From: Paeniglutamicibacter gangotriensis Lz1y
Lineage (GTDB): Bacteria; Actinomycetota; Actinomycetes; Actinomycetales; Micrococcaceae
Direction: 5' to 3'
NCBI RefSeq assembly: GCF_000348945.1
Contig: NZ_AOCK01000009.1
Span: 124,001 to 188,000 of the forward strand
Length of the DNA stretch: 64,000 bases
Of the stretch, positions 30,619 to 46,301 are shown piece by piece (positions within the stretch are counted from its first letter, which is position 1; every line of letters starts with the position of its first letter). A program made the position numbers and the translations under genes. A model generated the notes under the pieces. That model saw only the letters and a program-made list of their open reading frames with translations. It had not been told where the DNA came from and did not search any database.

Positions 30619-31266
30619 CTACGCGTGCTCCAGGTATTTGAGCACGGCCAGCACCCGTCGGTGGTCGCCTCCGGATGGTTCCAGGCCCAGCTTGGAGAAG
30701 ATCGCGGTGATGTTCTTCTCCACCGCCCCCGCCGAGAGGAAGAGCTCCGCACAGATCCCCGCGTTGGTGCGACCCTGCGCCATGAGTTCGATCACCGACT
30801 GTTCCCGCGGGGTCAGCCGCTGAAGCCCCGCGGGCCGGTTCGAGACGCTCATGAGTTGGCGCACGACTTCCGGGTCAAGCACGGTTTCCCCGGCGGCAAT
30901 CCGCACCAGCGCCTGGATGAACGTGGCAACATCAGCCACCCGGTCCTTGAGCAAATATCCGGTGCCCGAGGGCGTCCCGCCAAAGAGTGCTGAAGCATAG
31001 CGCGTCTCCACATATTGCGAGAGCACCAGCACCCCGACGTCGGGGTGGGTTCTGCGCAGCACCAGGGCCGCCTGAATACCTTCGTTGGTGTGGGTCGGCG
31101 GCATCCGGTTATCCATGATCACCACGTCGGGGGCCTGCATCTCCACGGAGGCGAGCAGGTCATCGGCGTTGTCCACGGCGGTGAGCACCTGGTGCCCGCG
31201 GCCGGTCAGCAATTCGGTGAGCCCGGCGCGCAGCAGGGCCGAATCCTCGGCAATGGAAATCCTCAT
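30619..31266 (-). CDS. NarL/LuxR-type response regulator
   Basis: The product is 215 residues from the ATG at 31266 behind GGGGGAAAC. The receiver domain begins MRISIAEDSALLRAG, with the phospho-acceptor Asp52 in VVIMDNRMPP and the conserved Lys in YLLKDRV. The LuxR helix-turn-helix is at ~150-205 (RLTPREQSVIELMAQGRTNA). It sits 28 bp downstream of the histidine kinase gene, with which it forms a two-component system. The linker and HTH resemble the beheaded regulator remnant at 33576. Confidence 0.93.
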   Translation of the reverse strand: MRISIAEDSALLRAGLTELLTGRGHQVLTAVDNADDLLASVEMQAPDVVIMDNRMPPTHTNEGIQAALVLRRTHPDVGVLVLSQYVETRYASALFGGTPSGTGYLLKDRVADVATFIQALVRIAAGETVLDPEVVRQLMSVSNRPAGLQRLTPREQSVIELMAQGRTNAGICAELFLSAGAVEKNITAIFSKLGLEPSGGDHRRVLAVLKYLEHA

Positions 31267-31294
31267 GCCCAAGTTTCCCCCGGATCGTTCCCGT

Positions 31295-32689
31295 TCACGA
31301 AAGCGGCAGGCTGAGAGTGATCTCGGTGGGGCCACCGCGCGGCGAGGAAATGTCCAAGGTCCCGTCGACGTTTGCTGCACGCGCCTTGAGCCCCGTGATG
31401 CCGCTTCCGGCTGTGGGGTCCACTCCTCCGATGCCATCGTCAAGCACGCTGAGCACCAGGAGTTTTCCGTGGTTGGCCGTAGCGACCTTCAAAGTGATGC
31501 GCGTTCCTGAGGAATGCTTGGCCGCGTTGTTCAGCAGTTCCGCGGCACAGAAGTAGGCGATGGCCTCGATCGCCGGGCCCGGACGGGAAGCCAACGAATA
31601 GGTTAGGGACACGGGCATCGGCGCCGCTGCAACCAGCGATTCCAGCGCCGTATCCAGTCCATCGTTGATGACCGCGGGCCGGATGCCGCTGGCCAAGGAC
31701 CGCAGGTCGCTCAACGCATCGGATGCGGTTCCCTGCGCGCTGGTCAACAGCGACTTGATGTTTTCCTCGATGTCTTTATCGGCCAACCGGTCCCTGGCAT
31801 CACCCAGTTTCATGGCGATGGCCACGAGCTGGGCCTGGGTCCCGTCGTGCAGGTCCCGTTCGATCTGCGCCAGCCGGGCGTCGGCGTCCTGCACCGTGTG
31901 TTTGCGTCGTTCTTCAACACTTTTCACTCGTAGTTGCGCCTCGGTGGGTCCCAGCAACCCGGCGGCCAGCATGCCCTGCAGGCGCGCCAGTCCGTTGTTG
32001 ATCGCGGGCCACAACAGGAAAGTGAATAGCAGCCCGACGGCCACGTACACCAGGTTCCAGGTCGGCCCCTCGGCGTAGATGTTGGACCCGATACTGGTCC
32101 CCCGGTGCCAGCTGCCGTCCGTTGCTTGCTGCAGGGGAAGCCACTGAACCCAGTACCAGTAGGTCAGGCAGCCCAGGCCCGTGACAAGAAAGGTGATGCT
32201 GAGCAGGGAGGCAACCAGGGTTGTCGCGAAGCTGACCAGCATGTGCGCAAGGGCGCGCCAACCACTTGCGTCGCCCAGCCCGGAGCGAATGAAGCCCATG
32301 AATCCTGGACGCCTCACGAGCCGCGGTGGGGCCTCGACGTGCTGCTCCAACAGCGACCCGGCGAGGGCTCGCTGCAGCCGGCCCCAGGATCGTGCACCCA
32401 TGACCATAGCCGCGGCAACGCTCAGTCCGACGATGGTCACCAGGAGCGATGCCCCCAAGGAAATCGTCAGGATGGCATAGGTGAAGCCGAAGGGAACCAG
32501 CAACAGCATGGCCCAGTGGTAGGCAAAGGCTCGCCACGTGGTTCTCTTGAAAAATGCCGGCACGAATTTCTGATCCCTCTGATATATGGAGCTAGGTGGT
32601 GCGGTTACTGAGAATGTTGGCATCATGGTGCCAACGGCGCTTTTATCCGGGCGTGAGGCCATCGTAGTCGTGTTCACGCTCTCTAGCAT
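31295..32689 (-). CDS. NarL-type sensor histidine kinase
   Basis: The 464-residue protein has an N-terminal sensor with about four membrane helices (~58-105 and ~150-245) in the style of actinobacterial DUF4118-free 'sensor domain' kinases. The HisKA_3 phospho-acceptor is in IERDLHDGTQAQLVAIAMKL, and the HATPase has the N-box ELLNNAAKHSSG, the G1 box DDGIGGVD and the G2 box GSGITGLKARA. No ligand-binding domain is recognisable. The start is not fixed by a good ribosome binding site; ATG codons at 32689 and 32662 are both possible. Confidence 0.92.
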   Translation of the reverse strand: MLESVNTTTMASRPDKSAVGTMMPTFSVTAPPSSIYQRDQKFVPAFFKRTTWRAFAYHWAMLLLVPFGFTYAILTISLGASLLVTIVGLSVAAAMVMGARSWGRLQRALAGSLLEQHVEAPPRLVRRPGFMGFIRSGLGDASGWRALAHMLVSFATTLVASLLSITFLVTGLGCLTYWYWVQWLPLQQATDGSWHRGTSIGSNIYAEGPTWNLVYVAVGLLFTFLLWPAINNGLARLQGMLAAGLLGPTEAQLRVKSVEERRKHTVQDADARLAQIERDLHDGTQAQLVAIAMKLGDARDRLADKDIEENIKSLLTSAQGTASDALSDLRSLASGIRPAVINDGLDTALESLVAAAPMPVSLTYSLASRPGPAIEAIAYFCAAELLNNAAKHSSGTRITLKVATANHGKLLVLSVLDDGIGGVDPTAGSGITGLKARAANVDGTLDISSPRGGPTEITLSLPLS

Positions 32690-32844
32690 TCTACGGAAAA
32701 TCAGGTGGCGACATGGGGCAGCCCGCCCTTTTACCCGGGGGATTTCCCCCGTTTTTCACTACGGGCCACACCGGGAGCACGACTTCGCCTGACTCAGGGT
32801 CATGGAAAAGTACCGCTCTGAACCGTCGGCTACACGGGCGCCAT

Positions 32845-32868
32845 CCAAGGTTAGGGCCTTAACCTTGG
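32845..32868. repeat. 24-bp palindrome 1 upstream of the CMD-like gene
   Basis: CCAAGGTTA and TAACCTTGG form perfect 9-bp arms around GGGCCT. A closely related palindrome begins exactly 40 bp further on. The pair looks like a double operator for a dimeric regulator, for instance MerR-like, but no regulator gene is adjacent. Confidence 0.55.
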
Positions 32869-32884
32869 TTAGCGACGCCCTTAT

Positions 32885-32908
32885 CCAAGGGTAGGACCCT
32901 ACCCTTGG
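32885..32908. repeat. 24-bp palindrome 2 upstream of the CMD-like gene
   Basis: CCAAGGGTAG and CTACCCTTGG form perfect 10-bp arms around GACC. It shares the outer CCAAGG/CCTTGG with palindrome 1, with start points 40 bp apart. Confidence 0.55.
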
Positions 32909-33126
32909 GCAACGAATCTCAAGAGCACGTCGCAACCACGATCAGGCGCGGGGCACCTGACTCCTACGGATGCGACAGAAGTCCTGGCCCAGCGCATTGG
33001 CGAACATCGCGAGGACCTGTTGACGCCGAATATGCGGGCCCATCTGTCCAAACGCGGACTGATGGGTTCTGGGGGCCGGCTGTCAACCCCTAGCAACTTC
33101 TCAGCAAGCCGGGCTAGCATCTAGTC

Positions 33127-33579
33127 ATGGAACCCAGGGTGAATCTCAGCAAGTCCGATCCTGCTGCGTATGCGGCGCTGTTGGCCATGAACAAGGCTGC
33201 CAGCGATTCTGCCGATGCCGCAGGAATTGATCCCAAGCTTCGCGAGCTGCTCAAGGTGCGTGCCTCGCAAATCAATGGTTGCACCTATTGCCTGCGCATG
33301 CATACACGTGATGCCCTCGAACTCGGGGAAAGTACCGATCGACTGGCCGTGGTCTCCGCGTGGGCCGACTCCGAGTACTTCACGGCGGTGGAACGCGCGG
33401 CCTTGGCATTGTGCGAATCCATCACCATGGTCTCGGTGGACCACGTCCCGCATGGGGTTTACACCATGGCCAGGGCGGTGCTTTCCGACGACCAGATCTC
33501 GGCCGTCGCCTGGCTGAGCGCGGCGATCAACATGTTCAACCGGGTCGCGATCGCTTCCCGCTACCCGGTCAAGCCCTAG
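33127..33579 (+). CDS. Carboxymuconolactone decarboxylase / AhpD-like protein
   Basis: The 150-residue protein has the CMD-family fold pattern with the AhpD-type CxxC pair, Cys52 and Cys55 in [16 protein letters not shown], followed by the conserved His. Such proteins are often peroxidase-like alkylhydroperoxide reductases. [13 protein letters not shown] and the C-terminal [12 protein letters not shown] segment are typical. The stop codon TAG overlaps, on the opposite strand, the stop of the truncated LuxR gene. The ribosome binding site is weak. Confidence 0.88.
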
Positions 33580-33803
33580 CTCCTGCCCTGCGCCTGCAGG
33601 TAGGACATGACCACCAGGACCCTGCGGTGGTCCTGCGGGTCCAATGGCAGCTCGAGCTTGGCCAGGATGTTGCCCACATGCCTCTCCACGGTGCATCCGG
33701 TCAGCCACAGTCGTTGGGCAATTCCTAGGTTGGCGCGGCCCTCGGCCATCAGCGCCAGCACCTCGCGTTCGCGCAGCGTCAGCGCCTCGATACGGCGGTT
33801 GGT
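33576..33803 (-). pseudogene. Beheaded LuxR-type response regulator (DNA-binding domain only)
   Basis: The minus-strand frame encodes only a LuxR helix-turn-helix: [20 protein letters not shown], then [20 protein letters not shown], ending [13 protein letters not shown]. It matches the C-terminus of the complete regulator at 30619 (which ends DHRRVLAVLKYLEHA). Upstream of 33803 the frame stays open to 34073 but crosses into hipA antisense and shows no receiver domain. It is therefore a 5'-truncated remnant, probably cut when the hipBA region arrived. Confidence 0.75.
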
Positions 33804-33898
33804 GCATGGGGAGCACCGCTGGGTTATGGCCGTTTCCGACCCAGCACAGGGCAGCCCGCTGCGCGGAAAAAAGCCACAACGTATCCGCCGACGCGGCC

Positions 33899-35095
33899 CT
33901 ATCCCTGCATCTCGTGCCGGCGGAAGCGCAGTTCCCGCTGGGCTCCGCGCAACGGGGAACCCGCGAAGGGCAGTGCGGTCAGGTCCACCGAGGCCGCGGC
34001 CTTGAGTGCGAGCCGGTTTGCCGAAGCCGCTGCCCTGGCCGGCAATCCGAGGGAGTCGGCGAATTGCGCCCAATGCCGGGCCTTGAGGTTCTTGAGTTTC
34101 CCGGAGACCGGAAGGGCCAGGGTCTCATCCCCGTAGAGCAGCGTGCAGGGCAGGTCATAGAGGGGCGAGATCTCGAAGCCGCCGTCCTCCCGCGCCAGGA
34201 CCGAGAGGTTCTTGGCATGCAGGTCCCCGTTGCCGGTCAGCCACGCAAAGGCGTACTGCAGGTAGAGGTTGCGGCTGGCCACCACCGGGGCAACGCACAA
34301 ACGGGCCAGGGCCAAGGCAACGTCCTCGGCTGCCACGGCGTACTTCGCGGCCGGGGGCAGGCCCATGACCTGCGTTCCGTCCTCGAGGGCCATCCGGTGC
34401 CAGTGGCCATCGGTTCCCTTCCGGCGGTCGAACCGCTCGACCAGCAGGCCGGTCAGGCCGTTCTTGTCATGGATGAGCCGGTTGCGCGCCACCGGGAGAT
34501 TCAGGTTCCTCGCCCCGACCAGGTGTGCGGCCTCGTTGGCCACCAGATGGGGGTTCTGCGCGGGATCCAGCTTGAGCAGATAGCGTTGGCCCCGCGTTGC
34601 CAACGGAGTGGTGAGCATCGAAGCGCTCGCCTTGTCTTGCACACCTGGAAGTGCGTGCAGGTCCACAGAGTTCGCCAGCACGGCGAAGTCCAGGTCCTCC
34701 GGATTCGAGGTGTCGGCCAGCGCCTCGGGTTCGGCGGGAACATCTCCCGCGGGAACGACCTGCACGTCGCCCGGGACATCGGCCCCCACAGCGAGCAGCA
34801 AGGTCAATTCGTCGTCGAAGCTGGTCTTAGTTGCATTCTTCAGCACCGTCAGGCGGTGCCCCTCGGGAAGTAACCCCGCAAAGAACGCGGGAAGAGCACC
34901 GTTGGACGTCTCGACCGCGGCGGTGTCCGGCGGCAGGGAGAAGGCCACCGGCGCATGGCCTTCTGCAAGGTAGTTGGCCAGATAGCCGAAGCGGATGCCC
35001 CCGGCAGCCGTCCGGGACAGCTCCCCCGCGTGGACGCCGTTCTTGTAGACGTCGGCACGCTCGATGAACCTGAGCCGTTGGAGGTCCGGGGTCAT
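33899..35095 (-). CDS. hipA: HipA family serine/threonine kinase toxin
   Basis: The 398-residue HipA protein overlaps the hipB stop by 4 bp (ATGA), as usual for the module. The Couple_hipA N-terminal domain contains [13 protein letters not shown]. The regulatory/phosphorylation-loop region is [11 protein letters not shown]. In the kinase lobe, KLDP provides the ATP-binding Lys, [12 protein letters not shown] the catalytic Asp/Asn, and ISPLYDLP the Mg-binding Asp. HipA phosphorylates glutamyl-tRNA synthetase in E. coli, causing persistence; the target here is unknown. All catalytic residues appear intact. Confidence 0.93.
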
Positions 35096-35292
35096 CGACC
35101 GACGCCAAGCTTGAGCCCCAGGACATTGAGGACCGAGGCCACCGCGCGCAGGGACGGATTACCTGTGGCGGTTTCCAGTGCGCGCACGGTTCGCTCGGAG
35201 ACCTCGGCCAGGTCGGCCAGCTCCCCTTGGGTCAACCCGGCGTCTTTGCGGGCCCGGCGAATCTCCAGCCCCAACACCGATACGGTTTCCAT
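35092..35292 (-). CDS. hipB: HipB-like XRE-family antitoxin/repressor
   Basis: The product is 66 residues from the ATG at 35292 behind GAGGGAG; the frame extends upstream into the operator region but has no start signal there. The HTH is IRRARKDAGLTQGELADLAE followed by VSERTVRALETATGNPSLR, the HipB/Xre pattern. It is shorter than E. coli HipB (88 aa). It should bind and neutralise HipA and repress the operon, probably through the CGGCAA-N4-TTGCCG sites at 35307, 35367 and 35428. Confidence 0.9.
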   Translation of the reverse strand: METVSVLGLEIRRARKDAGLTQGELADLAEVSERTVRALETATGNPSLRAVASVLNVLGLKLGVGR

Positions 35293-35306
35293 ACCACTCC
35301 CTCTAC

Positions 35307-35322
35307 CGGCAAAATATTGCCG
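35307..35322. promoter_or_regulatory. Putative HipB operator 1
   Basis: CGGCAA-AATA-TTGCCG, perfect 6-bp arms, lies 15 bp upstream of the hipB start, so binding would cover the promoter or ribosome loading site. Two more copies follow at 60- and 61-bp steps. Confidence 0.65.
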
Positions 35323-35353
35323 TTCTCGATGCTCCCCCTTCCCATGATCCATG

Positions 35354-35390
35354 AAAAACCCGCTTTCGGCAAGATCTTGCCGAAAGCGGG
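35354..35390 (-). terminator. Terminator of the upstream VOC gene containing a HipB-like site
   Basis: A perfect 32-bp palindrome (35359-35390; arms CCCGCTTTCGGCAAGA and complement) is followed on the minus strand by a T5 run (35358-35354), a good intrinsic terminator for the VOC gene ending at 35453. Its centre (35367-35382) is CGGCAA-GATC-TTGCCG, the same motif as operator 1. Confidence 0.75.
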
Positions 35391-35427
35391 CTCTCGGTTT
35401 GGTTGCATCCAACACAAGAGGGTCAAC

Positions 35428-35443
35428 CGGCAACTTACTGCCG
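35428..35443. promoter_or_regulatory. Putative HipB operator 3
   Basis: CGGCAA-CTTA-CTGCCG, one mismatch from the 35307 site, lies 61 bp beyond the central site and just after the VOC stop codon. The even spacing of three sites suggests cooperative binding or looping. Confidence 0.45.
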
Positions 35444-35452
35444 ATTCGGCAG

Positions 35453-35830
35453 CTATCCGTTCGGGCACTGCGGCAGGTACTGCACCGCCCACTTATTCCC
35501 GTCAGGATCGGCGAAGTACACGAAGTGCCCCCAGTCCAGGATCATCACGTCGCTGACCTCCACCCCCTTGGCCTTCAGCTCATCGTGCGCCACCTGGATG
35601 TCACTGACCACCATCTGAAGCATGGGAGCCGAACCGGGAGCCGCGTCGGTCAGCCCCTCACCAATGGTGATGGAGCAGGCGGAACCCGGCGGGGTCAGCT
35701 GGACGAAGCGGATCGACTCGGTAGGCCGTTCGTCGTGATCGGCGTTGAAGCCAACCTTGTTGACATAAAAATCCTTGGCACGGTCCACATCGGACACGGG
35801 GACAAACACCAGTTCTAGTTTCCAGTCCAT
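35453..35830 (-). CDS. VOC family protein (glyoxalase/bleomycin-resistance superfamily)
   Basis: The product is 125 residues from the ATG at 35830. The βαβββ pattern starts MDWKLELVFVPVSDVDRAKD with FYVNKVGFNADHD, and ends with HFVYFADPDGNKWAVQ, whose Asp-Pro-Asp-Gly and following residues are standard. This resembles the YybH-less 'glyoxalase' annotation common in actinobacteria; substrate unknown. It lies between the Tn3 insertion and hipBA, and the transposon entered 80 bp upstream of its start. Confidence 0.85.
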   Translation of the reverse strand: MDWKLELVFVPVSDVDRAKDFYVNKVGFNADHDERPTESIRFVQLTPPGSACSITIGEGLTDAAPGSAPMLQMVVSDIQVAHDELKAKGVEVSDVMILDWGHFVYFADPDGNKWAVQYLPQCPNG

Positions 35831-35870
35831 GGCGCCCACGCTACTGCCGCGGCAGTAGCGGCGTAAAGGG

Positions 35871-35910
35871 TTACTGGAGCTATGCCGACCCGGTGGTGCA
35901 GCTCCAGTAA
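35871..35910. repeat. Stem-loop abutting the transposon insertion site
   Basis: TTACTGGAGC (35871-35880) and GCTCCAGTAA (35901-35910) form perfect 10-bp arms around a 20-base loop. The Tn3 element starts at the next base, and the last five bases AGTAA are its target duplication. The hairpin therefore predates the insertion. Confidence 0.6.
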
Positions 35911-35948
35911 GGGGTCTGAACTGCAGCGGAACAGTGGTTGGCGCTAAG
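35911..35948 (+). repeat. Tn3-family terminal inverted repeat, left
   Basis: The 38-bp repeat starts GGGGTCTGAACTGCAGCGGA and ends GGCGCTAAG. It matches the right repeat except for A versus G at position 10. It is preceded by the target duplicate AGTAA. Confidence 0.95.
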
Positions 35949-35970
35949 TAATCTGTTGGGGTGACATGGT

Positions 35971-36552
35971 TCAAGTGTTGCTGATGGGCAGGTGGCGGTA
36001 AATGGATGCCCGGGATACGCCGAGTGCTTTGGCGATCTGGGTGGGACTTTCCCCGTTGGCATTCCTGGCTCGGGCGGCGGCGAGGGTATCGGCATTCATG
36101 ACGGTGGGGCGGCCGCCGGTGCGGCCCTGGGCTCGGGCTGCGGCGAGGCCGGCCATGGTGCGTTCACGGATCATGTCGCGCTCGAGTTCGGCGAACGCGG
36201 CCATCATGACGAAGAAGAATTTCCCTTCTCCTGTTGGGCTGTAGGTTCCCGTGAGGGTTCCGGTGAGAATGCGCAGGCCGACTCCTTGGTCGTGGAGGCC
36301 GTCGGCGATGGTAAGTACTTCCTTCACCGACCGGCCGAGGCGATCCAATTTCCATACGCACAAGGTGTCCGTCGGACGGAGATGGCCGAGCGCTTCAACG
36401 AGCCCCGGGCGGGCGGTGGCGCGGCTGGAAATTTTGTCTTCGAAGATCCGCCCGCAGCCGGCGGTTTCGAGGGCATCGCGCTGGAGCTGGGAGTCTTGTC
36501 CGTTGGTGGATACGCGGGCGTAACCGATGAGATTGAATTGCTGGGTTGCCAT
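35971..36552 (-). CDS. tnpR: TnpR serine resolvase
   Basis: The product is 193 residues from the ATG at 36552. The serine-recombinase catalytic domain begins NLIGYARVSTNGQDSQLQRD with nucleophile Ser15; the catalytic Arg cluster is represented by WKLDRLGRSVKEV. The E-helix region AFAELERDMIRERTMAG leads to a C-terminal HTH (ESPTQIAKALGVSRASIYRH). Its reaction resolves transposition cointegrates at res. The res-like dyads lie just upstream. It is complete and of normal length. Confidence 0.95.
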   Translation of the reverse strand: MATQQFNLIGYARVSTNGQDSQLQRDALETAGCGRIFEDKISSRATARPGLVEALGHLRPTDTLCVWKLDRLGRSVKEVLTIADGLHDQGVGLRILTGTLTGTYSPTGEGKFFFVMMAAFAELERDMIRERTMAGLAAARAQGRTGGRPTVMNADTLAAARARNANGESPTQIAKALGVSRASIYRHLPISNT

Positions 36553-36560
36553 GGACCAAC

Positions 36561-36622
36561 TGTCTCACAACCGTCTCACAACATTACTGTCACCGAGTAT
36601 GTTATGAGACGGGTTATGGACG
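36561..36622. promoter_or_regulatory. res accessory subsites (II/III-like) upstream of tnpR
   Basis: Half-sites TGTCTCACAACC (36561) and CGTCTCACAACAT (36572-36584), followed by the inverted ATGTTATGAGACG (36599-36611) and GGTTATGGACG (36612-36622), form a dyad with 13-bp arms (one mismatch) plus an extra half-site on each side. This is the layout of resolvase accessory subsites, and it would overlap the tnpR promoter. Confidence 0.65.
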
Positions 36623-36655
36623 ATTTTTGATCGGCGCGTCGCTGGACCCCGGAAT

Positions 36656-36682
36656 CGTCTCAGAACCGGTCGTTTTCGGACG
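36656..36682. promoter_or_regulatory. res site-I-like crossover dyad, tnpR side
   Basis: CGTCTCAGAACC and the inverted GGTCGTTTTCGGACG form a ~27-bp dyad with the same CGTC...GAC ends as the accessory subsites. Its centre is near 36669, two bases from where the 50-bp inverted repeat shared with 39768-39817 begins (36667). It is therefore the likely crossover site. Confidence 0.6.
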
Positions 36683-36716
36683 CCGTGCAGGCTTAGCGTC
36701 GGATATTCGGCGAATT
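36667..36716 (+). repeat. 50-bp inverted repeat flanking the Tn3 cargo, left copy
   Basis: Fifty bases starting CGGTCGTTTTCGGACGCCGT and ending CGGCGAATT recur without mismatch, inverted, at 39768-39817. The outer boundary lies at the centre of the site-I-like dyad. Weaker similarity (AAGCCGCCCC) continues inward after a small indel. Confidence 0.9.
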
Positions 36717-36741
36717 ACCAGTAAGCCGCCCCCATAGCCAC

Positions 36742-36974
36742 TACAGGTCCCGGGGCATCATCGTGAGTATGTTCTTCCAGTCCTAGAACCAGGGCGTGGA
36801 AGCCTACGGGGAGAAGGGCATGGCCAAGCTTTGGGCCGGGCTATCCTGACCATCTCGGGCATGCCGGCTGGCCTCATCGAGCTGGAGCACTACTCGTACA
36901 AGCCCTACGCCGATGATGTGGTTCAATCCCAGGAGTACTACGAAGGTATCGCTGTCAAGGACGGCGTTCTGTAG
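36742..36974 (+). pseudogene. Degenerate coding sequence inside the transposon
   Basis: One frame reads SRGIIVSMFFQS, a TAG (36784), then NQGVEAYGEKGMAKLWAG; about 60 bp on, another frame reads ILTISGMPAGLIELEHYSYK and PYADDVVQSQEYYEGIAVKD, ending at TAG 36972-36974. The compositions are protein-like, but no single frame is intact and there is no start. It looks like the C-terminal end of a metabolic enzyme broken by a stop and a frameshift. I do not recognise the family. Confidence 0.5.
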
Positions 36975-36982
36975 GCTCACAT

Positions 36983-37042
36983 AACAGTACGAATGAAGGT
37001 CCGGCCCCGTTGGACTGGGGCCGGACCTTCATTCGTACTGTT
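36983..37042. repeat. 26-bp perfect inverted repeat (large hairpin)
   Basis: Arms 36983-37008 and 37017-37042 are perfectly complementary over 26 bp (outer AACAGTACGAATGAAGG) with an 8-base loop GTTGGACT. It lies just after the degenerate coding remnant and 16 bp from the stop of the 88-aa gene, so it could act as a bidirectional terminator, although no T run follows. The perfect stem is unusually long. Confidence 0.7.
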
Positions 37043-37057
37043 GAAAACATTCAAAAA

Positions 37058-37324
37058 TTATGTAGTCGAAGTCCACCCAATAATTAGCGCAACCATCATA
37101 AGTGCTATACCCACGATGCTCGGAATAAGCGGCAACCAATACCACCTATTCCTTCGCAGGCCCTTGACACACCAAACCGCGATTACTACTGGTGGGATGA
37201 GCAGAAAAGTATTGTCGTTGATGAATACTAGCCAGATGGAGAAGGCGAGAAGTACGAAGGCGATTAGAGGTCCGCTCTTCGACGGCAATGTTTTTGTTGG
37301 CACCTCGTGAGCTAGATTTGCCAC
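37058..37324 (-). CDS. Small membrane protein, possible immunity partner
   Basis: The product is 88 residues from the GTG at 37324 behind a strong AAGGAGA. After a short polar N-terminus come three hydrophobic helices (~19-35, 38-54, 61-84), with a basic KGLRRNRW loop between the second and third. No family is recognised. Base composition is clearly more AT-rich than the chromosome. It lies 61 bp downstream of the secreted-protein gene on the same strand, so the two are likely an operon. The pairing of a secreted protein with a small membrane protein is reminiscent of effector/immunity pairs, but that is inference only. Confidence 0.75.
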   Translation of the reverse strand: MANLAHEVPTKTLPSKSGPLIAFVLLAFSIWLVFINDNTFLLIPPVVIAVWCVKGLRRNRWYWLPLIPSIVGIALMMVALIIGWTSTT

Positions 37325-37385
37325 GGGATCTCCTTTTGAAAGTTGATTATTTCTCTAGACCTGATTGTACGGGTGTTTGCGCCAT

Positions 37386-38669
37386 TCAGTACCTGCCATT
37401 GTCGAAGTTCAGCGATTCGTAGTTGCAGACGTTTACGCGTGTCAAGCACCCAAATCCCTTATTCGTACGACCGAAGATCGTCTTCCAGCTGGACTGGTTA
37501 TTTGCCTTGATATAGGTCTCGTGATGCGGAACAGGTCGGCGAATGGCGTTTCTGAGCGAGAAGCTACCTGATTTGGTGATGTTGACAGTCATTCGGCCAA
37601 AAATCGGCAGGGTTGCAGCCGTGTTACACAGTGGATTGGTAACCACCACATTGATGTATGCAGTACCTGATGTTGAAGACATGCCCTGATTTTTGAATGT
37701 GATCCCGGAGGCTGAGGCAGTTTTAGTGGACTCGTTTTTCCATACGCCACTTACTTTTTTCTGACGGGTAGTTGAGCCAACAGACTTGCCAAAAGTCATG
37801 GTCTTATTGCTCCAATTCATGGTAACTCTGGCATAGGTTCTATTGGATCCCCCTGTGCTCCAGCTACGATTGTCTCCCTTAAATCGATAACTGCCGATTG
37901 GCGGAGTGCAAGCGCCTTGTGGCGCTGGTGCTGTTGCTCCCGCAATAAAGGTCTTATAACGGAATTCCGTGCTCGTACGTGCGGCAGCAGCCTTTGCGGC
38001 AACCTGCGCGGCGGCAACTACTGCGACGTCAGTCGAATCTTTAGGTACCGTTGCGGGTATGCCCCACGTAGTACCAGCGCTTGGGACTTCCATCTCGCCT
38101 GCATCGATGCGCTCAGCCTCATCTGAAGTAACGAATTCATTCATTTCGTCCCTACTCAGCGGCGTTTCAGCAGTCACTGTATATTCGTATTTCGATCCAG
38201 GATTGATACTCGTGTCTACAAATGAAGTCTCCCCATTCAAGGTCGCCAAAAGCACTTCATCGCGATAAATGTAGGTTCTTGCTGCTCCCATATCTGGCCA
38301 AAGAAGATCAACTTTCGTTGGGCTGACAAGTGCGGCTGCGCGATCTTCTGGATTCTTAGATTCGAGAAGAGAGCCATTGAGGAGTGCTGTACCGTCTTCG
38401 GTTTCTACTTTGAAGAAATCGGGCAATGCTGCTGACGCAATCTCTTGCACATCAACCAAATTTTCGCCATCTCGAATTTCCACATTGCCATGGCGATCTT
38501 TTTTGATGGCAAAATCTGATTCTTCATGCTGGGTATCGGTACTGCTTATTTGGTTCGCAACTGGTTCTATATCAGTCACGGAAGCCGAAGCAGGAAGCGA
38601 GCTTGAAATGAACAATATAGTCATAACAAAAGCACAATATCTTGTAGTTTTTCGCATTAATTTATTCAT
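37386..38669 (-). CDS. Secreted protein with FN3-like domain and possible DUF3238-like C-terminus
   Basis: The product is 427 residues from the ATG at 38669 (a GTG at 38678 is in frame). A classical signal peptide (basic RK, hydrophobic core, cleavage after ASA ~29) directs export. A polar region to ~110 is followed by a fibronectin-III-like module (VDLLWPDMGAARTYIYRDEV ... YEYTVTAET) and an Ala-rich linker. The C-terminal ~190 residues contain GSYRFKGDNRSWSTGGSNRT, paired Cys and HHETYIKANNQSSWKTIFGR. This recalls DUF3238-type secreted proteins of Bacillus, from memory and not verified. The AT-rich codons differ from the host and mark it as transposon cargo. Function unknown. Confidence 0.75.
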   Translation of the reverse strand: MNKLMRKTTRYCAFVMTILFISSSLPASASVTDIEPVANQISSTDTQHEESDFAIKKDRHGNVEIRDGENLVDVQEIASAALPDFFKVETEDGTALLNGSLLESKNPEDRAAALVSPTKVDLLWPDMGAARTYIYRDEVLLATLNGETSFVDTSINPGSKYEYTVTAETPLSRDEMNEFVTSDEAERIDAGEMEVPSAGTTWGIPATVPKDSTDVAVVAAAQVAAKAAAARTSTEFRYKTFIAGATAPAPQGACTPPIGSYRFKGDNRSWSTGGSNRTYARVTMNWSNKTMTFGKSVGSTTRQKKVSGVWKNESTKTASASGITFKNQGMSSTSGTAYINVVVTNPLCNTAATLPIFGRMTVNITKSGSFSLRNAIRRPVPHHETYIKANNQSSWKTIFGRTNKGFGCLTRVNVCNYESLNFDNGRY

Positions 38670-39213
38670 TCGTCTCACGATTCAATCTTGACCTACTGGA
38701 CATCTTGGATGATCTGTATAGCTAAATTAGCTTATCCGAGATTGTCGACAGCATGCAGGCAAACATGCAGGTGTAGGCTTGATTTAAAATCCCTGAAACA
38801 CTTGTACCTTTAACTTAATTACGCTGAAGGAACAGGAAACTCAGTTCGTTAGGTTCGAGGTTGCCACTATTTTTCACTGTCCATGCGGCGGCTGCTCTCA
38901 TGACCAGCATAAGTACATCGCAGCGCGGAACAAGGCACTCAAGAACCGGTTCTCATCGACGCGAGGATCCTCGCTGTTATACAAACTCGCAGCGCTTGCC
39001 AGTGAAAGATAGACTAGAGTTTTTGGCCTCTCGAATAATTTCATGGTGTCAAGCCTCTGGTTGAGGCCGCCGCATGGACAGAGTCCGCCCGAGAACTCTT
39101 GGTGACTTAAGCCCAACACTAAACATTTTCTTCAGGGCCAATGCACTTTGGAGATAGCCGCGCGGGGGTGCGACAAAGTTTACTGGGGGGTCGCCCCTTT
39201 GCCTTTTTTATGG
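38670..39213. other. AT-rich non-coding part of the transposon cargo
   Basis: This 544-bp stretch has no intact gene. From about 38797 one plus frame is open for ~70 codons to TAG 39010-39012, reading FHCPCGGCSHDQHKY and then YIAARNKALKNRFSSTRG. It lacks a usual start codon and may be a relic of a Cys/His-rich protein. The upstream part (38680-38800) must hold the promoter of the secreted-protein gene. Confidence 0.4.
39163..39209 (+). terminator. Possible plus-strand terminator in the cargo
   Basis: GGGGTGCGAC and GTCGCCCC pair with a one-base bulge, followed after a few bases by a T6 run (39204-39209). No intact plus-strand gene precedes it, so it may belong to the decayed frame at 38797-39012. 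Confidence 0.4.
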
Positions 39214-39664
39214 CTAAATATCAACCTGGGGAATGTCCCTCGGGAGCCGCAAATATCGGCTATGGTTCCGGCGGGTGCGGGTGCGTGGTTTCATCAAGGC
39301 GTGGAATGGCCCGTCGGGGCTGGTGAGCCGGTCCATCAGCGGGTAGAAGTGGTCCCGGTAGTACACCAGGATCGCTTGGGGTCCGTCCAGCTTCACCTGT
39401 TCCCAGGTCACCCAGAGCGCCTGGACCGGGGGGGTCGGCTTCCGGTGCCGGGTAGTCGAACCAGTTGGGTGCCCACTTATTGGTGCCGTAGAGCCTGCGC
39501 AGGTAGTGCGGCAGCGCCAACTCCTGTAGCTATTGCTCGCAATCCCGGTAGGTGAAGGACAGTGCCGGGGCGGGTTGCCCTTCACCTGCGTGCTCGGCCT
39601 GCGCCTCTGGTTCCTCCGTGGCGTCGTCAAGGTCAACCAATTCTTCATCCGGGACCGACATCAT
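39214..39664 (-). pseudogene. DUF4913 plasmid-type protein, inactivated
   Basis: From an ATG at 39664 the minus strand reads MMSVPDEELVDLDDATEEPE, then FTYRDCEQ followed by an in-frame TAG, then LQELALPHYLRRLYGTNKWA. A frameshift moves the rest to ALWVTWEQVKLDGPQ, YYRDHFYPLMDRLTSPDGPF and HALMK. This is the DUF4913 pattern of actinobacterial conjugative plasmids. One stop plus one frameshift make it a true pseudogene. The bases just upstream also read NRKRIIGAAQPNRTQEKV, possibly the end of a preceding plasmid gene. Confidence 0.75.
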
Positions 39665-39767
39665 CGGGACAACACCTTTTCCTGGGTCCGGTTGGGCTGG
39701 GCCGCACCGATGATGCGCTTGCGGTTCTTCATCGCGGTGTTGGAGTTCGTGAGGCTGGGGCGGCTTG

Positions 39768-39817
39768 AATTCGCCGAATATCCGACGCTAAGCCTGCACG
39801 GCGTCCGAAAACGACCG
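39768..39817 (-). repeat. 50-bp inverted repeat flanking the Tn3 cargo, right copy
   Basis: This is the exact reverse complement of 36667-36716 and sits 13 bp beyond the tnpA stop. Its outer end (39817) lies within two to three bases of the centre of a second site-I-like dyad at 39802-39827 (CGTCCGAAAACGACC / GATTGTGGACA), whose outer half differs from the left one. Confidence 0.9.
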
Positions 39818-39830
39818 ATTGTGGACATCG

Positions 39831-42800
39831 CTATTCGTCGTCGGGAGAATTTGCCGGGTTACGCAATGGCCGGAGATTGTCGTCGAAGGGGGTAGCGAAG
39901 GAATACCTGCCGTGGACATTGATGTGCGCGTCTCCCAAGGGAGAAAGCCTCGCCACGTCGGCGTCATCCACGGGATGTCCCTGCTCCCGCAGGGCCGTCA
40001 GAGCCGCATCGATGTAGCGGGTGTTCCACAGGATGACCGCGTTCAAAACGAGCCCGAGGGCGCCGAGCTGGTCCTCCTGGCCCTCACGGTATCGCTGGCG
40101 CAGTTCCCCACGCTGGCCATAGAAGATTTTCCGGGCCATGCGGTGCCGGGATTCCTGGACGGTGAGTTGAACGTGGATCGATCGACGGTAGCTCTCATCG
40201 TCCGGGTCGTACATGGCCAGCAGATGCAGGGTCTTTGCGGCACGCCCATAGTCGGCGAACGCCGCCCCGAGCGGGGTGGGGTTGCCGTCGCGGCTCAGCA
40301 TCCGCAACAGGTCATAGCCGGCGACCGAACCGCTGTGCAGGGACCCCACCACGCGCAGCATGTCGGCCCATTGGCCCCTGATGCGCCCGGCGGAGAGCTT
40401 GTTCGTTGCGACGGCGTTCAGGGAACCATAATCAACAGCCTGCCCGCCGGGCACGGTGAGGCGCCACAGACGCTGGTCGGGCATATCGGCCAGACGCGGG
40501 CTGAACTGGTAGCCCAGCAGACGGAAGAGCCCGAACACGATGTCGGAGTAAGAGGCGGTATCCGTCGCGATCATCTGCGGGGCGGGTCCGCCGTCACGGT
40601 TGAGGATCACGTCCAGGACATGCAAAGAGTCGCGCATCGTGCCGGTCACCACCACGGCACCGATGCCGGACACCTGGTCGTTGATGGCGTTGAGCCAGGT
40701 CACGCCGCGGCCCTGACCGAAATAATGCGGATTCGGGCCGGCGTCTAAGGTGCGGACCGGGACAACGAACCGCAACCCATCGACGGAGGCCACCAGCCCG
40801 CCGCCCCAGGCCCGGGCCGTCGGCACACCGGCCTGGGCATCGATGAGACGGGCGTTGGCGGCGGCCAGGGTGTCGCTGCGCAGGTAATTCTGCGCCTCAT
40901 GTGAGAGCCGGCGACGGCTCAATGCCGGATGTCCGTGTTTGATCACCGGCGCGAATCCGAGGTTGCAGCCTTCGGCGACCAGTACCGCGGCCATCGAGGT
41001 CGCCAGATCGGTGAGTCTGGAACCGGAGGCCTGCCCCGTCATGCCCAGGTGGGTGAAATCGTTCAAATAGCCGGTCCAGGCGTTCACTTCCAGCAGCACG
41101 TCAGGAAGATCCACCCGGGGCAGCATTCGCTCGACGGTGTCCCGCAACGCGGTCAGCGTATCCGGTTCCGGCACCGCTTCCAACCGCGACTGATGGATGC
41201 GTGTGCGACCATCGGGGCCTGTTTCCAAACGAAGAGGGGCAGTGCCCGAGCCCGCTTCAGCGGGTCGGATCCGGGCGGCGAGAGCTGTGTAGGCCGTGTC
41301 CAGTCGTGCGGCAAGGTCACTAAGGTGCGCATCAACGGGGTCCTGTAATCGCAGCGCGGTGAGGACATCGGGACGGGCCTGTTCCCAAGCCTCGCCATCC
41401 AGGAGGCGTGCCCGTGGGTCGCCCCACCGGGCGGAATCCACCGCGTACACATCCCGGCGACGCAACGCCCGATGCAATGCCTCGAGCACGCACAGCGTGT
41501 AGGCCCGGTGATCCACCAGCTCATCCGGCGATTCCGGAGAGGGAAACACCAGCCGCCGCCACGACCCGACCACCACCTCATCCACAATCTCCGCCCGGGT
41601 CACCCGCTTGCGTCCAACCAGGCACCTCAGGCCCCGCACCGCGGTCAACAGCGCAGTGCCCGCCGGTGTTGCAGCCAATGGCAAGACTTTAGCGATCACC
41701 GCGACAAATGGCCGGACGGTGGCGTATCGTTTCACCAGTTCTGCCTGCCCTTGGTCCGCGTCGTCCCCGGCGTCGGGTGCCAGCTCCTGAACGGTCGCCA
41801 CTGCGGACATGAGCTTCTCCCTCGATATGGCTACTTGCAACCTGTTCCACGCCTCAGCCGGGTCCAGCCCCGTGCCCTGGGCCTCGGCACATTCGAGCAT
41901 CACCTTCGCCGCTGCAGCCAACGTCACCGACGCCCGCCTCAACTGAGGCAAGGACTTCATCCGGTCCTTGGCCGAGGCGCGCACCGCAGGCCCGATGAGC
42001 TTGGTCGCCATCAGAACGGAGAACAAGTCAAGGGCATCATCAACCGCCGATACCTGTAACGCCCCGGCGGTGGCCAACAATGTCGCCCACCGGCGTTTTT
42101 CCGGCATACGTCGTAGCGTCGCAGCATCCGATGACAGGCCCTGCCGTGCCAGCACCTGGATACGCCCCGCCGGAATCTCGCCCAGATCAACGTCGCCGAC
42201 ACCCATCCCGGCGATCTCCGCAGCGCGCTCCAAAGCCCGGACCATCTCCGGCCCCGAGGCCCGGGTTGGGGCTCGGCGCATCCGCTCCAACCCCGAGGAT
42301 CGGGTATCAGCCGGCACCGTGAGTAAACCATCAAGACCACGACCAAGTTCCGTTGAGACTCGTTGCGCCAGCACCGAATACAACCGATCGCCGGCCGTGC
42401 TTCTGGCCTCCGCGACGAGTCTGGCCAACACGCTCACTCCCGGCAACAGCACCCGCTCCGCACGAAGCCACGCCACGCTCTGATCGAAGAGCTGGGTCGG
42501 CCGCTCGGCCCGCGTCCAGGCACGAGCCGTCAGAAAGCCCTTGAATTCGGCGACCGTTTCGGGCTCTGACAACCGCCGGTACCCATACGCTCGGGCTATC
42601 TCCCAGCGGTGCTCGTAGGGGGTCTTTGGCCGCTCCGCGTAACTCCCCAAAACGGAACCATCGGCGATCCCGAGTTGCGATGCCATGAAGTCAACCGCCG
42701 CTTTTGGTACCGCCACCGGGTCATCAAGAAACGTCCCCAGAAAACGTAGTGTCCCCAGCTGCAAACCAAAGCCAAGCTGGCTACCCTCGCCACGGCGGCG

Positions 42801-42923
42801 ACCAACCAACTCCAGATCCCGGTCATCAAGAAAGAAGAACCGTTCCAATTCGGCCCGTGAAATCGGACCGGAGAATTGGCCATACACCGCTACTTGGTCA
42901 TCACTGAGAAATTCAACTGGCAT
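39831..42923 (-). CDS. tnpA: Tn3-family transposase TnpA
   Basis: The 1030-residue protein has normal Tn3 TnpA length. The N-terminal DUF4158-like domain starts MPVEFLSDDQVAVYGQFSG. The catalytic region has ASVDGLRFVVPVRT (first Asp), ATDTASYSDIVFGLFRLLGY (second Asp) and the C-terminal block RDGNPTPLGAAFADYGRAAK with LNAVILWNTRYIDAAL. It recognises the 38-bp ends and forms cointegrates. The frame is intact and the start lies 27 bp inside the right terminal repeat. Codon use is host-like GC-rich, unlike the cargo. Confidence 0.96.
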   Translation of the reverse strand: MPVEFLSDDQVAVYGQFSGPISRAELERFFFLDDRDLELVGRRRGEGSQLGFGLQLGTLRFLGTFLDDPVAVPKAAVDFMASQLGIADGSVLGSYAERPKTPYEHRWEIARAYGYRRLSEPETVAEFKGFLTARAWTRAERPTQLFDQSVAWLRAERVLLPGVSVLARLVAEARSTAGDRLYSVLAQRVSTELGRGLDGLLTVPADTRSSGLERMRRAPTRASGPEMVRALERAAEIAGMGVGDVDLGEIPAGRIQVLARQGLSSDAATLRRMPEKRRWATLLATAGALQVSAVDDALDLFSVLMATKLIGPAVRASAKDRMKSLPQLRRASVTLAAAAKVMLECAEAQGTGLDPAEAWNRLQVAISREKLMSAVATVQELAPDAGDDADQGQAELVKRYATVRPFVAVIAKVLPLAATPAGTALLTAVRGLRCLVGRKRVTRAEIVDEVVVGSWRRLVFPSPESPDELVDHRAYTLCVLEALHRALRRRDVYAVDSARWGDPRARLLDGEAWEQARPDVLTALRLQDPVDAHLSDLAARLDTAYTALAARIRPAEAGSGTAPLRLETGPDGRTRIHQSRLEAVPEPDTLTALRDTVERMLPRVDLPDVLLEVNAWTGYLNDFTHLGMTGQASGSRLTDLATSMAAVLVAEGCNLGFAPVIKHGHPALSRRRLSHEAQNYLRSDTLAAANARLIDAQAGVPTARAWGGGLVASVDGLRFVVPVRTLDAGPNPHYFGQGRGVTWLNAINDQVSGIGAVVVTGTMRDSLHVLDVILNRDGGPAPQMIATDTASYSDIVFGLFRLLGYQFSPRLADMPDQRLWRLTVPGGQAVDYGSLNAVATNKLSAGRIRGQWADMLRVVGSLHSGSVAGYDLLRMLSRDGNPTPLGAAFADYGRAAKTLHLLAMYDPDDESYRRSIHVQLTVQESRHRMARKIFYGQRGELRQRYREGQEDQLGALGLVLNAVILWNTRYIDAALTALREQGHPVDDADVARLSPLGDAHINVHGRYSFATPFDDNLRPLRNPANSPDDE

Positions 42924-42950
42924 GGCACCAACCTAAGCCAATTACGAAGG

Positions 42951-42988
42951 CTTAGCGCCAACCACTGTTCCGCTGCAGCTCAGACCCC
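42951..42988 (-). repeat. Tn3-family terminal inverted repeat, right
   Basis: The 38-bp repeat, read inward on the minus strand, begins GGGGTCTGAGCTGCAGCGGA. It is followed outside by the target duplicate AGTAA (42989-42993). Confidence 0.95.
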
Positions 42989-43022
42989 AGTAAGGAGAGG
43001 GAAGCTGCACATTCCCGGTCGG

Positions 43023-44663
43023 CTATTCGGGCATCAGATCCCTGGCCCGGAAACGCCAGAACCCGATCGTGGCCAGCACCAAAGCGATGACGAACAGGAC
43101 CACCAGGGGCAGCAGGGCGAAGTCCTGGGCCGGGATCCGCGGAACCGCACCAAACGGGGTGAGCTTGATGAAGTCCTCGGACAGAAAAAACAATCCGCCG
43201 AACATCGCAGCCATGACCGAAAGCCCGTAGATGACCCACACGATGCCGGTGCTGGGCCGCGGAATGGATCCCTGGCAAAAGAGCAATACCCCGAGCATCA
43301 GCAGCACCGCCGGCCAGTACCCAAACGACGCCGCGGCCATGGAACCGCCGGTCGCCGCGCCCTGGGAGGATGCCCCGGAGAGATAGCCTCCAACCAGCAG
43401 CATCACCACGGAGCCGACCCCCGCCACCAAGACGTGCGCCCACAGCCAGCCGAAGCGCGAGAGCGAACCGGCCAGCTGGCTCTCCAACCTCCCGCTTTCC
43501 TCTTCGCTGCGCGCCCCGGCCAGCGTCTGGATGGCGAAGGCCCCGGCCAGCAATCCGTTGAAGAGCACGAAGATGCCCATCACCTCGTCAAGTATGTTGT
43601 CCCCGGTTCCCACGAAAGACTTGGCGAACGGGTTGTTCGGGTCCAGTACCGAGGCCATCACTTTGGCGACCGAACCGAAGAACAGTCCGGCCACCGCGGC
43701 CCCGATGAACCAGCCCAGCAGCGAGGCGCGCTGCAGGCGCAGCACCAGCCCCAGCGGGGCGCAGATGAAAGCCGAAGCCGTGGCGGGCCCGCCACGCTCG
43801 GGCAGGACGCCAGCGCCTAGGTCCCTGCGGGATTCCACGCGCAAAGCCAGTGCGCAGCCAAGCACCGCCAGGCCCAGCAGGGCCAGCAGCGGCCACCAGT
43901 TGTTCTCCCCGAAGGAGCGCATGTTTTGCGCCCAGCCAATGGGCGAGAACCAGCTCAGCGCGCTCGGGTTTGTGCCGTTGGCTTGCAGGTCGGCACCCGC
44001 ACGGATGAAATAGAACAGGCCCACCAAGCCCACGCCCAGCGCGTTCGCTCCGCGGCTGGTGGTCGCCAGCTGGCCGCAGATCGCCGAGACCGCCACGAAG
44101 GCCAATCCGGTTCCGGCAATGGAGGCGCCCATGGTCCAGGATCCGTCGCTCGGGAGCGACAGGGACAGGCAGAGCATGGAGATCAGCAACCCGGTGACCA
44201 CCGATAGCGAGCCTGCCACCAGGTAGTTGGCCACCGAGTAGGCGTGCCGTCCCAGAGCGGCCGAACGCAGCAGCTCGGTGCGCCCGGCCTCCTCGTCGGC
44301 ACGCCCGTTGCGGGTGACCAGGAAGATCGAGGCGAAGCCCAGGGCCACGGCCAGGGTCATCCAGATCTTGATGACCAGGATTCCGCCGAGCGAGCCCGCG
44401 GCGTAGGGCAGCCCGGTCATCGCGGCCACGGCCGGGGTGTTGGCCACCTGGGCGTAGGCGTCGCGGGCGGCCTGGGTCGGGAAGGCCTCCTGCTGGGAGC
44501 CGTAAACCATCGGGATCATCACGGCCAGCACCGCGGCCCAGATGAGCAGCCGCAGCCAGTTGCGGCGCAGGATGAAGCGCACCGCGTTGCCGAGTCCGGC
44601 CAGGGTGCCCGTGGCCGCGGAGGCGCCGGCACCGGCGCGCACGGGGAAGGTCAAGGTGCTCAT
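43023..44663 (-). CDS. ABC-2 type antibiotic exporter permease
   Basis: The 546-residue integral membrane protein has about twelve hydrophobic helices in two similar halves, as in actinobacterial 'polyketide antibiotic exporter' (TetB/LanT-less ABC-2) permeases. [20 protein letters not shown] and [20 protein letters not shown] are the two equivalent cytoplasmic 'EE.GR.E.L' loops, supporting internal duplication. It overlaps the ATPase gene by 4 bp and should form the channel with it. The substrate is probably a lipophilic drug, by inference. The Tn3 right end lies 34 bp after its stop codon. Confidence 0.87.
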
Positions 44664-45616
44664 CGCGCGCCGCCCGCTGGTGCGTGGGCATGGCGCCCGG
44701 CCTTGGTCTCGCGCGGCTCCGCGGGCAGTCCCCCGTAGTGGCGCAGGAATAGATCCTCGAGCGACGGCGGGGCCGACACCAAGGAGCGCGGCGAGTACCT
44801 TGAAAGAGCCTCGAGCACGCCGCCAAGGTCTTCCTCGACGACGGTGAAGGTGGCCTTGGGCCCGTCGAGGACCAAGTCGTTGATGCCCGGGACCGAGGCC
44901 AGCGCGTTGGCGTTTCCGGTCAGCAGCACCGAGACGGTGGTGCGGTGCAGGTGGCGCAGCGCCTCAAGGCGCCCGGCCTCCACGGTCCGACCCTCGCGGA
45001 TGATGGTCACGGTGTCGCAGAGCTTTTCCACTTCGGCGAAGATGTGGCTAGAGAGCAGCACGGAGCGCCCTGCGTCCTTGGCCTCGCGGATGCAGGCGGT
45101 GAAGACCTGTTCCATCAGCGGGTCAAGGCCGGATGTCGGCTCGTCCAGCAGCAACAGCTCGGCATCGGAGGCCAAGGCCGCGACCAGGGCAACCTTCTGC
45201 CGATTGCCCTTGGAATAACTGCGGGCCTTTTTGGTGGGGTCCAGGTCGAAGCGTTCGAGCAGGCTGTCGCGCTTGGCGGCGTCCACTGACCCGCGCAGGG
45301 CCGAGAGGATGCCGATGGCCTGCCCGCCGGTCAGGTTGGGCCACAGGGCCACCTCGCCCGGGACGTAGGCGATGCGCCGGTGCAGCTGGACGGCGTCGTC
45401 CCACGGGTCCCCGCCGAGCATCTTCACGCTGCCCGAATCGGCACGCAGCAGCCCGAGCAGGATGCGGATGGTGGTCGACTTGCCCGAACCGTTGGGCCCG
45501 AGGAACCCGGCGACCTCCCCCGCCTCGACCTGCAGATCCAGTCCCGCCAGGGCAACGGTGCGACCGAAGCTTTTGTGCAAGTCGGTCACCGAAATGGCCT
45601 GGGTGTTGGTGGACAT
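44660..45616 (-). CDS. ABC transporter ATP-binding protein (drug export)
   Basis: The 318-residue ATPase has Walker [21 protein letters not shown], the signature region [16 protein letters not shown] (a divergent LSGGQ, as usual in this exporter type), Walker [13 protein letters not shown] and the H-loop [11 protein letters not shown]. The C-terminal extension (~220-318) is typical of ABC-2 drug exporters. It overlaps the permease gene by 4 bp and lies 10 bp downstream of the TetR gene, giving a TetR-ATPase-permease operon. Confidence 0.93.
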
Positions 45617-45626
45617 GGTTTTCTCC

Positions 45627-46301
45627 TTACCGTGTCACGGTGTCTCCCGCGAGGCCCGCGGGCGGGTTCCTGGTTCCGGCCAGGAAAGCCAGGTATTCAT
45701 CGAGGTATTCCCGGGTGGTAAACAGCCCCTCGGTGTACAGCTCGAGGGTCGGCAGCACGGCCTCGGCGTAGTAGCGATCCATCACCGCACCAAAGTCGTC
45801 CAACGGCCTCTCGGGACGCATCGCGAAGCTGACCACCATGGCGCCGACCGATTGCTGGACCAGGAGACGCACGCGTGCCTCCTCGTCGCAGCTGGGAACG
45901 ATGATTCCCCGCTCCACGGCGTCGCGGGAGATCTTCAGATTCTCGGTGACCAGGTGCTCGATGAAGTCCCGTCCCGCGTCCCCGCCCGCGCGGACCGAGC
46001 GCAGGATGTAGACCAGCAGGACCCCGCCCTCGCGCGAGGACGGGAACCGGGCGAAGAGTTGCTGTGGCGGCGTCTTGAGGCTTTCGTTCTTCAGCGTGCG
46101 GTAGCGTGCCAGCACCGTGGCGTCGCATTCGGCGCGCAACGCTTCCTTGGATCCGAAGTGGTGGCGGACCAGACCGGCGCTGACCCCGGCCCGGGCGGCA
46201 ATGGCGCGCAGTGATTCGTCGAACCCGTGCGCAGCGAAGCACTCGATGGCGGCGTCGCGCAGCCGGGCCCGACCGGTTAGGTCTTCACGGGCTGCACTCA
46301 T
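45627..46301 (-). CDS. TetR family regulator of the ABC exporter operon
   Basis: Counting from the ATG at 46301 gives 224 residues: the TetR_N helix-turn-helix is [20 protein letters not shown], then [20 protein letters not shown], followed by a helical ligand/dimer domain. It probably represses the exporter genes 10 bp downstream. CTATACA repeats around 46301-46325 could be the operator or -10 element. Oddly, the frame has no stop upstream and continues into an SdpI-like membrane domain with its own ribosome binding site at 46766, so a 379-residue fusion is possible. Confidence 0.88.

Follow-up and report, generated by a model that had tools for sequence, protein, structure and literature searches.

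Inversion between inverted res sites has precedents. Tn3-family resolvases reportedly act on inverted res in Tn1721 and Tn2501, inverting the DNA between them; those elements have a complete res at both ends, unlike Tn6517, the Tn3-family transposon considered here. Tn6517 lies in a 64,000-nucleotide stretch of Paeniglutamicibacter gangotriensis Lz1y (contig NZ_AOCK01000009.1, positions 124,001 to 188,000), which is called the window below and in whose coordinates positions are given unless another locus is named. Two related processes are already in print: Tn3 elements exchange modules at res site I (PMC7157771), and composites with inverted res-bearing miniature elements undergo inversion (PMC13367494). 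In Tn5501/Tn4662a and TnTsp1, as in Tn6517, the cargo adjoins site I and the swaps are broken at the site-I dinucleotide, but there the cargo is a toxin-antitoxin module, the available passages of the description contain no inverted sites, and how Tn3-family transposons acquired such res-adjoining toxin-antitoxin genes is considered molecularly unclear (PMC7157771). Similarly, the TIME composites with inverted TIME244 copies carry cargo between inverted, res-bearing, Tn3-derived ends and occur in either orientation, with 52 of 114 replicons having the inverted one, for which their authors proposed that TnpR could be the explanation; however, in the parts of the account available, these composites are stand-alone and have a putative full res per arm, whereas the arms of Tn6517 are hybrid sites inside an autonomous transposon (PMC13367494). 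The open-licence literature yielded no report of an autonomous transposon in which hybrid site-I joints of two Tn3 subfamilies make the cargo invertible, of an inverted pair of Tn6517, or of a docking point mapped to the base in a large number of lineages.

In comparison to these systems, Tn6517 is a Tn3-family element of Arthrobacter-type bacteria whose 3-kb payload is in opposite orientations in two strains and is placed where the element's own recombinase would be expected to cut. The reading favoured here, with fair rather than strong confidence, is that the cargo was docked at the site-I crossover point and has since been inverted, most likely by a serine recombinase acting at site I. The transposon has tnpR at its left end and tnpA at its right end, with 3.15 kb of cargo between them:

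35911..42988: complete Tn3-family transposon, Tn6517 with inverted cargo, 7,078 bp, delimited by its terminal repeats, the AGTAA duplication and identity to NZ_MH067971
35911..35948, plus strand: left terminal inverted repeat of Tn6517, 38 bp
35971..36552, minus strand: tnpR, serine recombinase close to DNA invertases (Pfam Resolvase, 4.4e-41)
36561..36622, no strand: tnpR-proximal res half-sites, probable accessory subsites, seen by eye as repeated YGTCTCANAAC motifs; borders approximate
36656..36682, plus strand: site I on the tnpR side, with outer half CGTCTCAGAACCG (36656-36668), centre GT (36669-36670) and an inner half from another transposon family
36667..36716, plus strand: left arm of the 50-bp perfect inverted repeat
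39768..39817, minus strand: right arm of the 50-bp perfect inverted repeat
39802..39827, minus strand: hybrid site I on the tnpA side, with inner half CGTCCGAAAACG, centre AC (GT on the other strand) and outer half CGATTGTGGACA
39831..42923, minus strand: tnpA, Tn3-family transposase, 1030 aa (Pfam DDE_Tnp_Tn3, 1e-125; NCBIfam transpos_Tn3)
42951..42988, minus strand: right terminal inverted repeat of Tn6517, 38 bp

Membership in the Tn3 family is indicated by the 38-bp terminal repeats beginning with GGGG, the 5-bp target duplication AGTAA flanking the whole element (35906-35910 and 42989-42993), a DDE transposase of the Tn3 type (NF033527, 889.6 bits against a cut-off of 500) and, as far as sequence can tell, a serine resolvase with an adjoining putative res. 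The sequence-only reading of this DNA had mentioned neither these terminal repeats nor the target duplication.

A plasmid search returned one near-identical element, in pA40H2 (NZ_MH067971, locus L003) of the Antarctic Arthrobacter sp. ANT_H40, where it was named Tn6517 (PMC6305408). The two copies are 99.8% identical in tnpR, 99.97% in tnpA and 99.9% in the cargo. The tnpR, res, arms and tnpA of the window match NZ_MH067971 on the same strand (99.8-100%), whereas every piece of cargo between the arms matches it on the opposite strand (99.5-100%); aligned as a whole, the window's 3151 bp of cargo and the 3153 bp of L003 are 99.94% identical over the full length, again on the opposite strand. 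Inversion has affected the cargo as a single block, exactly between the repeats and with the outer flanks unchanged, and the cargo orientations in the window and in pA40H2 are opposite. A relative with inverted cargo, which the sequence-only reading of this DNA had named as something to look for, therefore exists, and both orientations occur in nature, with one copy each in the window and L003. The genome containing the window is a draft in 20 contigs, and its cargo orientation might have arisen as an assembly error across the 50-bp repeat. This is improbable, because ordinary reads are longer than such a repeat and both arms have unbroken unique flanks. Searches of family genomes covered 395 Micrococcaceae genomes; no other exact cargo inversion was present among 26 cargo stretches compared, many of which are cut by contig or locus ends, and the cargos of L127 and L135 have reversed pieces in common without exact ends. 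The direct repeat of the pA40H2 copy is TGGTA (PMC6305408) and that of the window copy is AGTAA, at another site, and the two thus represent separate insertions. The main text of PMC6305408, in its available form, does not use the term 'res site', and its Tn6517 passages mention neither internal repeats nor inversion; a search of the open-licence literature for Tn6517 and Tn6516 found Tn6517 in that paper only.

Comparative analyses place the cargo joint at the centre of site I. The res and tnpA sides of relatives were aligned, starting from 22 left-junction loci. Nine of these were dropped: L001 and L005 (the window itself), L003, L011, L037, L036, L040 and L080 (duplicates of kept elements), and L015 (cargo in common with L010). 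The 13 kept loci and the window make 14 lineages. On the res side, all 14 have CGTCTCAGAACCG (with at most one mismatch), then a centre dinucleotide, and then part of an inner half-site, and the variable centre is enclosed by a CG-NN-CG core whose leading CG is present in 13 of the 14 and whose trailing CG is likewise present in 13. For the outer half of site I, pairwise identity averages 0.92, a value inflated by the use of this half as anchor. Past the centre it is 0.74 (+2 to +5), 0.46 (+6 to +13), 0.28 (+14 to +25) and 0.26 beyond, a fall that is not anchor-inflated and that reaches chance level (random expectation 0.257) from approximately 14 bp past the centre. Because conservation extends up to site I and then drops to chance level, site I is the apparent docking point for cargo. 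The cargos of the relatives mostly differ, with L127 and L131 having much in common and L132, L135 and the pair L130/L134 only pieces.

On the other side of the cargo, an outer half CGATTGTGGAC(A/G), or a sequence close to it, adjoins tnpA in the window, L034, L036 and L040, and this half, sometimes changed, is present in 4/6 lineages with the tnpA 3' end at 84% or more; L036 has a whole second site I there, in direct orientation. Two cargo-free relatives, which had also been proposed as a check, were found, and both are distant. L074, a fragment with tnpA at 77%, has site I and res directly after this gene; in L054, with tnpA at 67%, they lie approximately 50 bp beyond it. Site I was recognised by eye in each. 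Together with the tnpA-side halves, these layouts suggest that the ancestral site I consisted of the window's outer left and outer right halves, with the cargo now at its centre. Additionally, L124 and L138 have a tnpR about 91% identical to that of the window but a tnpA that is only 63% identical, which suggests that modules were exchanged in the res part of the element and makes shuffling near res probable, although the res of L138 failed to align. Overall, the proposal that foreign DNA was joined to the transposon at the site-I centre is borne out by the junction comparison and by relatives with other cargos, and cargo capture at site I is well supported by these alignments. The joint between cargo and res is readable to the base pair in many lineages, and the family that supplied the arms can be identified.

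The 50-bp perfect inverted repeats are present where the sequence-only reading placed them (36667-36716 and 39768-39817). They extend to 56 bp at 96% (36661-36716 and 39768-39823), the longest of four inverted-repeat pairs listed for 30000-46000. Both dyads that it described (36656-36682 and 39802-39827) were likewise found, with outer half-sites that differ as it had noted: CGTCTCAGAACCG on the tnpR side and TGTCCACAATCG on the tnpA side (reverse strand). Each dyad pairs 8 of 13 positions, and approximately 1% of 27-mers or 26-mers in 30000-46000 score equally; the dyads by themselves are weak evidence, and the case is carried by the comparative evidence. The repeats begin at the centre of site I on the tnpR side and at the centre of the hybrid site I adjoining tnpA, and both centres read CG-GT-CG from outside inwards. 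Each arm consists of a terminal repeat of the ISArsp6/Tn6516 type and the adjoining half of that family's site I, whose centre is the joint to a site-I half of Tn6517. The description of the repeats as copies of a resolvase site-I half is thus right for one portion of each arm and wrong for the rest, which is a terminal repeat of a second family:

36692..36732, minus strand: terminal inverted repeat of an ISArsp6/Tn6516-type transposon, GGGG end towards the cargo
39757..39792, plus strand: second terminal inverted repeat of an ISArsp6/Tn6516-type transposon, GGGG end towards the cargo

The inner arm pattern is present in 15 of the 395 Micrococcaceae genomes, at 16 places that include the two arms in the window; its reversed control had no match in the same genomes. 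This inner part is a piece of a 38-bp Tn3-type terminal repeat, GGGGTGGCTTGTGAATTCG...CGCTAAG, and L113 is a complete cargo-free member of the family to which it belongs (terminal repeat, site I, res, tnpR, tnpA, terminal repeat). ISArsp6 and Tn6516 are among the relatives of L113, and ANT_H40, the strain that carries pA40H2, has Tn6516 on pA40H1. These elements of Micrococcaceae, the source of the arms' site-I half and terminal repeat, differ from Tn6517 in their transposase (28% identical in L113) and resolvase (44-46%), but they too have cargo at site I. For instance, L115 and L114 match L113 on both sides of AACGATCGTT, with approximately 6.1 kb between, and L117, L144, L146, L147 and L148 have the tnpR side of the AACGATCGTT core in common but not the other side; L115, L117 and L148 have one cargo end in common. 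At five places in 4 of 14 regions (L110, L112, L120 twice, and L121), the family is represented by miniature elements that have both ends and measure 264-293 bp. Their two ends carry different kinds of terminal repeat, facing outwards, and site I is clear in L110 and L112. A search of the window's own genome with 36640-36730 matched only the two arms of Tn6517 (E up to 0.001), and a phage search with 36650-36730 gave no match at E up to 0.1.

Since Tn3-type terminal repeats do form part of each arm, the cargo could be viewed as an ordinary non-autonomous transposon or insertion that is unrelated to res and has the 50-bp arms as its terminal repeats. The sequence-only reading had itself named terminal repeats of an unrelated insertion as a finding that would count against it, and this was found in part. 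However, such an origin is very improbable: the GGGG ends point into the cargo, the reverse of an insertion, and the arms continue past the terminal repeat to the site-I centre, where lineages with other cargos break as well. An independent insertion with outward terminal repeats was thus rejected, the repeats facing inwards and no 5-bp duplication surrounding the cargo (by eye). The cargo is not a TIME composite (TIME-COMP) either: in place of two complete miniature elements, each side has no more than an inner terminal repeat with a site-I half, and a target duplication flanks the whole of Tn6517 but, by eye, not the cargo.

Three further observations concern the second family. Inward of the perfect 50 bp, its terminal repeats differ by small indels (36717-36733 and 39757-39767), and arm identity ends at GAATT. 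Contigs C8 (93603-94489) and C16 (29662-37441) of the window's own genome contain second-family pieces, among them res-like sequence whose start is at or near the site-I core. In pA40H2, an end of this family is located at L003 541-578, 84 bp from the Tn6517 insertion.

The ancestor of Tn6517 would have had tnpA adjoining an intact site I (13 bp, centre dinucleotide and 12 bp), as in the cargo-free relatives. Exchange at the centre by a serine recombinase would then have joined it to DNA flanked by an ISArsp6/Tn6516-type site I and terminal repeat; that joints lie at the site-I centre in two families points to such an enzyme as their maker. The donor was probably a cargo between two inverted second-family ends, for example a TIME composite. 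This is the simplest source of a double hybrid, in that one exchange would fuse the two and a second would remove the rest, leaving half sites at both ends. The outcome would be a cargo between two site-I cores in inverted orientation, and two inverted sites, as the sequence-only reading had envisaged, are indeed what the window contains. The window's two centres agree only in inverted orientation, GT with GT; if crossover dinucleotides have to match for exchange, inversion would be allowed and deletion would not, with the place of cleavage deduced from symmetry.

The agent of inversion would be a serine recombinase at site I, either the element's own TnpR or a related enzyme of that cell, and the same genome encodes other TnpR-like proteins, three of them 44-46% identical. 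By sequence comparison, TnpR resembles DNA invertases more than gamma-delta resolvase. Among solved structures, its best match is the DNA invertase 4m6f, presumably phage Mu Gin, with 162 bits (92 of 179 positions identical), against 74 bits with gamma-delta resolvase 1gdt, and its best PHROG is a DNA invertase (222 bits). On those structure scores it is like the ISXc5-type resolvases, which are said to be a subfamily close to DNA invertases.

A serine recombinase is the most likely agent, and RecA acting on the 50-bp arms is almost as likely. According to this alternative, which is a serious contender, a resolvase captured the cargo at site I and the later inversion was due to RecA-dependent homologous recombination across the repeats, with TnpR uninvolved. 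Fifty bp of perfect identity are present, and the crossover lies somewhere inside them. The window's arms are also more alike than independent ends elsewhere (86% in L020 and 80% in L027), as if homogenised by exchange, and one of the two sites is without visible accessory subsites. On the other hand, 50 bp is short for efficient RecA recombination, arm identity ends just outside the site-I centre, for which RecA has no need, and TnpR is invertase-like.

Several points weigh against the favoured reading, that the cargo was docked at site I and inverted there by a serine recombinase. RecA would be expected to give the same product. The tnpA-side site is 12+2+12 rather than 13+2+12, and no accessory subsites were seen there. 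Two bare copies of site I did not recombine in Tn3, according to the available part of PMC12217951, and inverted sites are disfavoured about a thousandfold by Tn3 resolvase, according to that of PMC9943657. The centre dinucleotide varies among the 14 lineages (GT in 7, GC in 5, AC in 1 and TT in 1), and exchange between unlike sites would therefore be hindered. The element was found in two copies only, one per orientation. Additionally, L035 and L037 are without the tnpA-side half in the tnpA-side alignment, L117 has no site-I half at its terminal repeat, and Tn6516 (L143) has a terminal-repeat-like stretch before the core, such that its junction is ambiguous.

The existence of this natural inversion pair makes it simple to test whether transposon resolvases are able to take up cargo and turn it round. 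A wider scheme is conceivable, though rather doubtful, in which site I is a docking port shared by at least two Tn3 subfamilies of Micrococcaceae and an invertase-like TnpR plugs in, swaps and flips cargo through the CG-NN-CG core. The centre would decide between deletion (direct match) and inversion (inverted match only), and an inverted hybrid would lock the cargo in while leaving it invertible.

The cargo itself contains the following features:

36739..36920, plus strand: remnant of a conjugation gene for TraM recognition (coupling protein); the longest match reaches 36920, others are shorter
36983..37042, no strand: hairpin with a 26-bp perfect stem and 8-nt loop, a probable terminator past the end of the cargo genes
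37058..37324, minus strand: 88-aa protein, membrane-like by eye, no family
37386..38678, minus strand: 430-aa protein, signal-peptide-like start by eye, no family
39214..39648, minus strand: DUF4913 gene (Pfam, 9.4e-14)

The coupling-protein remnant begins just after the left terminal repeat, as would be expected of DNA adjoining an inserted transposon end, and DUF4913 genes adjoin coupling-protein genes in related plasmids. At the limits used, the 430-aa protein matched no family of Pfam, NCBIfam or PADLOC. Its gene is present in 3 of the 395 family genomes, including its own, and the best other match is 32% identical. A 32% identical homologue in another genome (L141 1342-2571) is followed by a membrane-like open reading frame (2578-3084), the same arrangement as at 37058-38678 in the window. 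The 430-aa and 88-aa proteins may be a functional pair. Outside the transposon, a gene for a HipA-like protein (33899-35095) adjoins the Tn6517 insertion.

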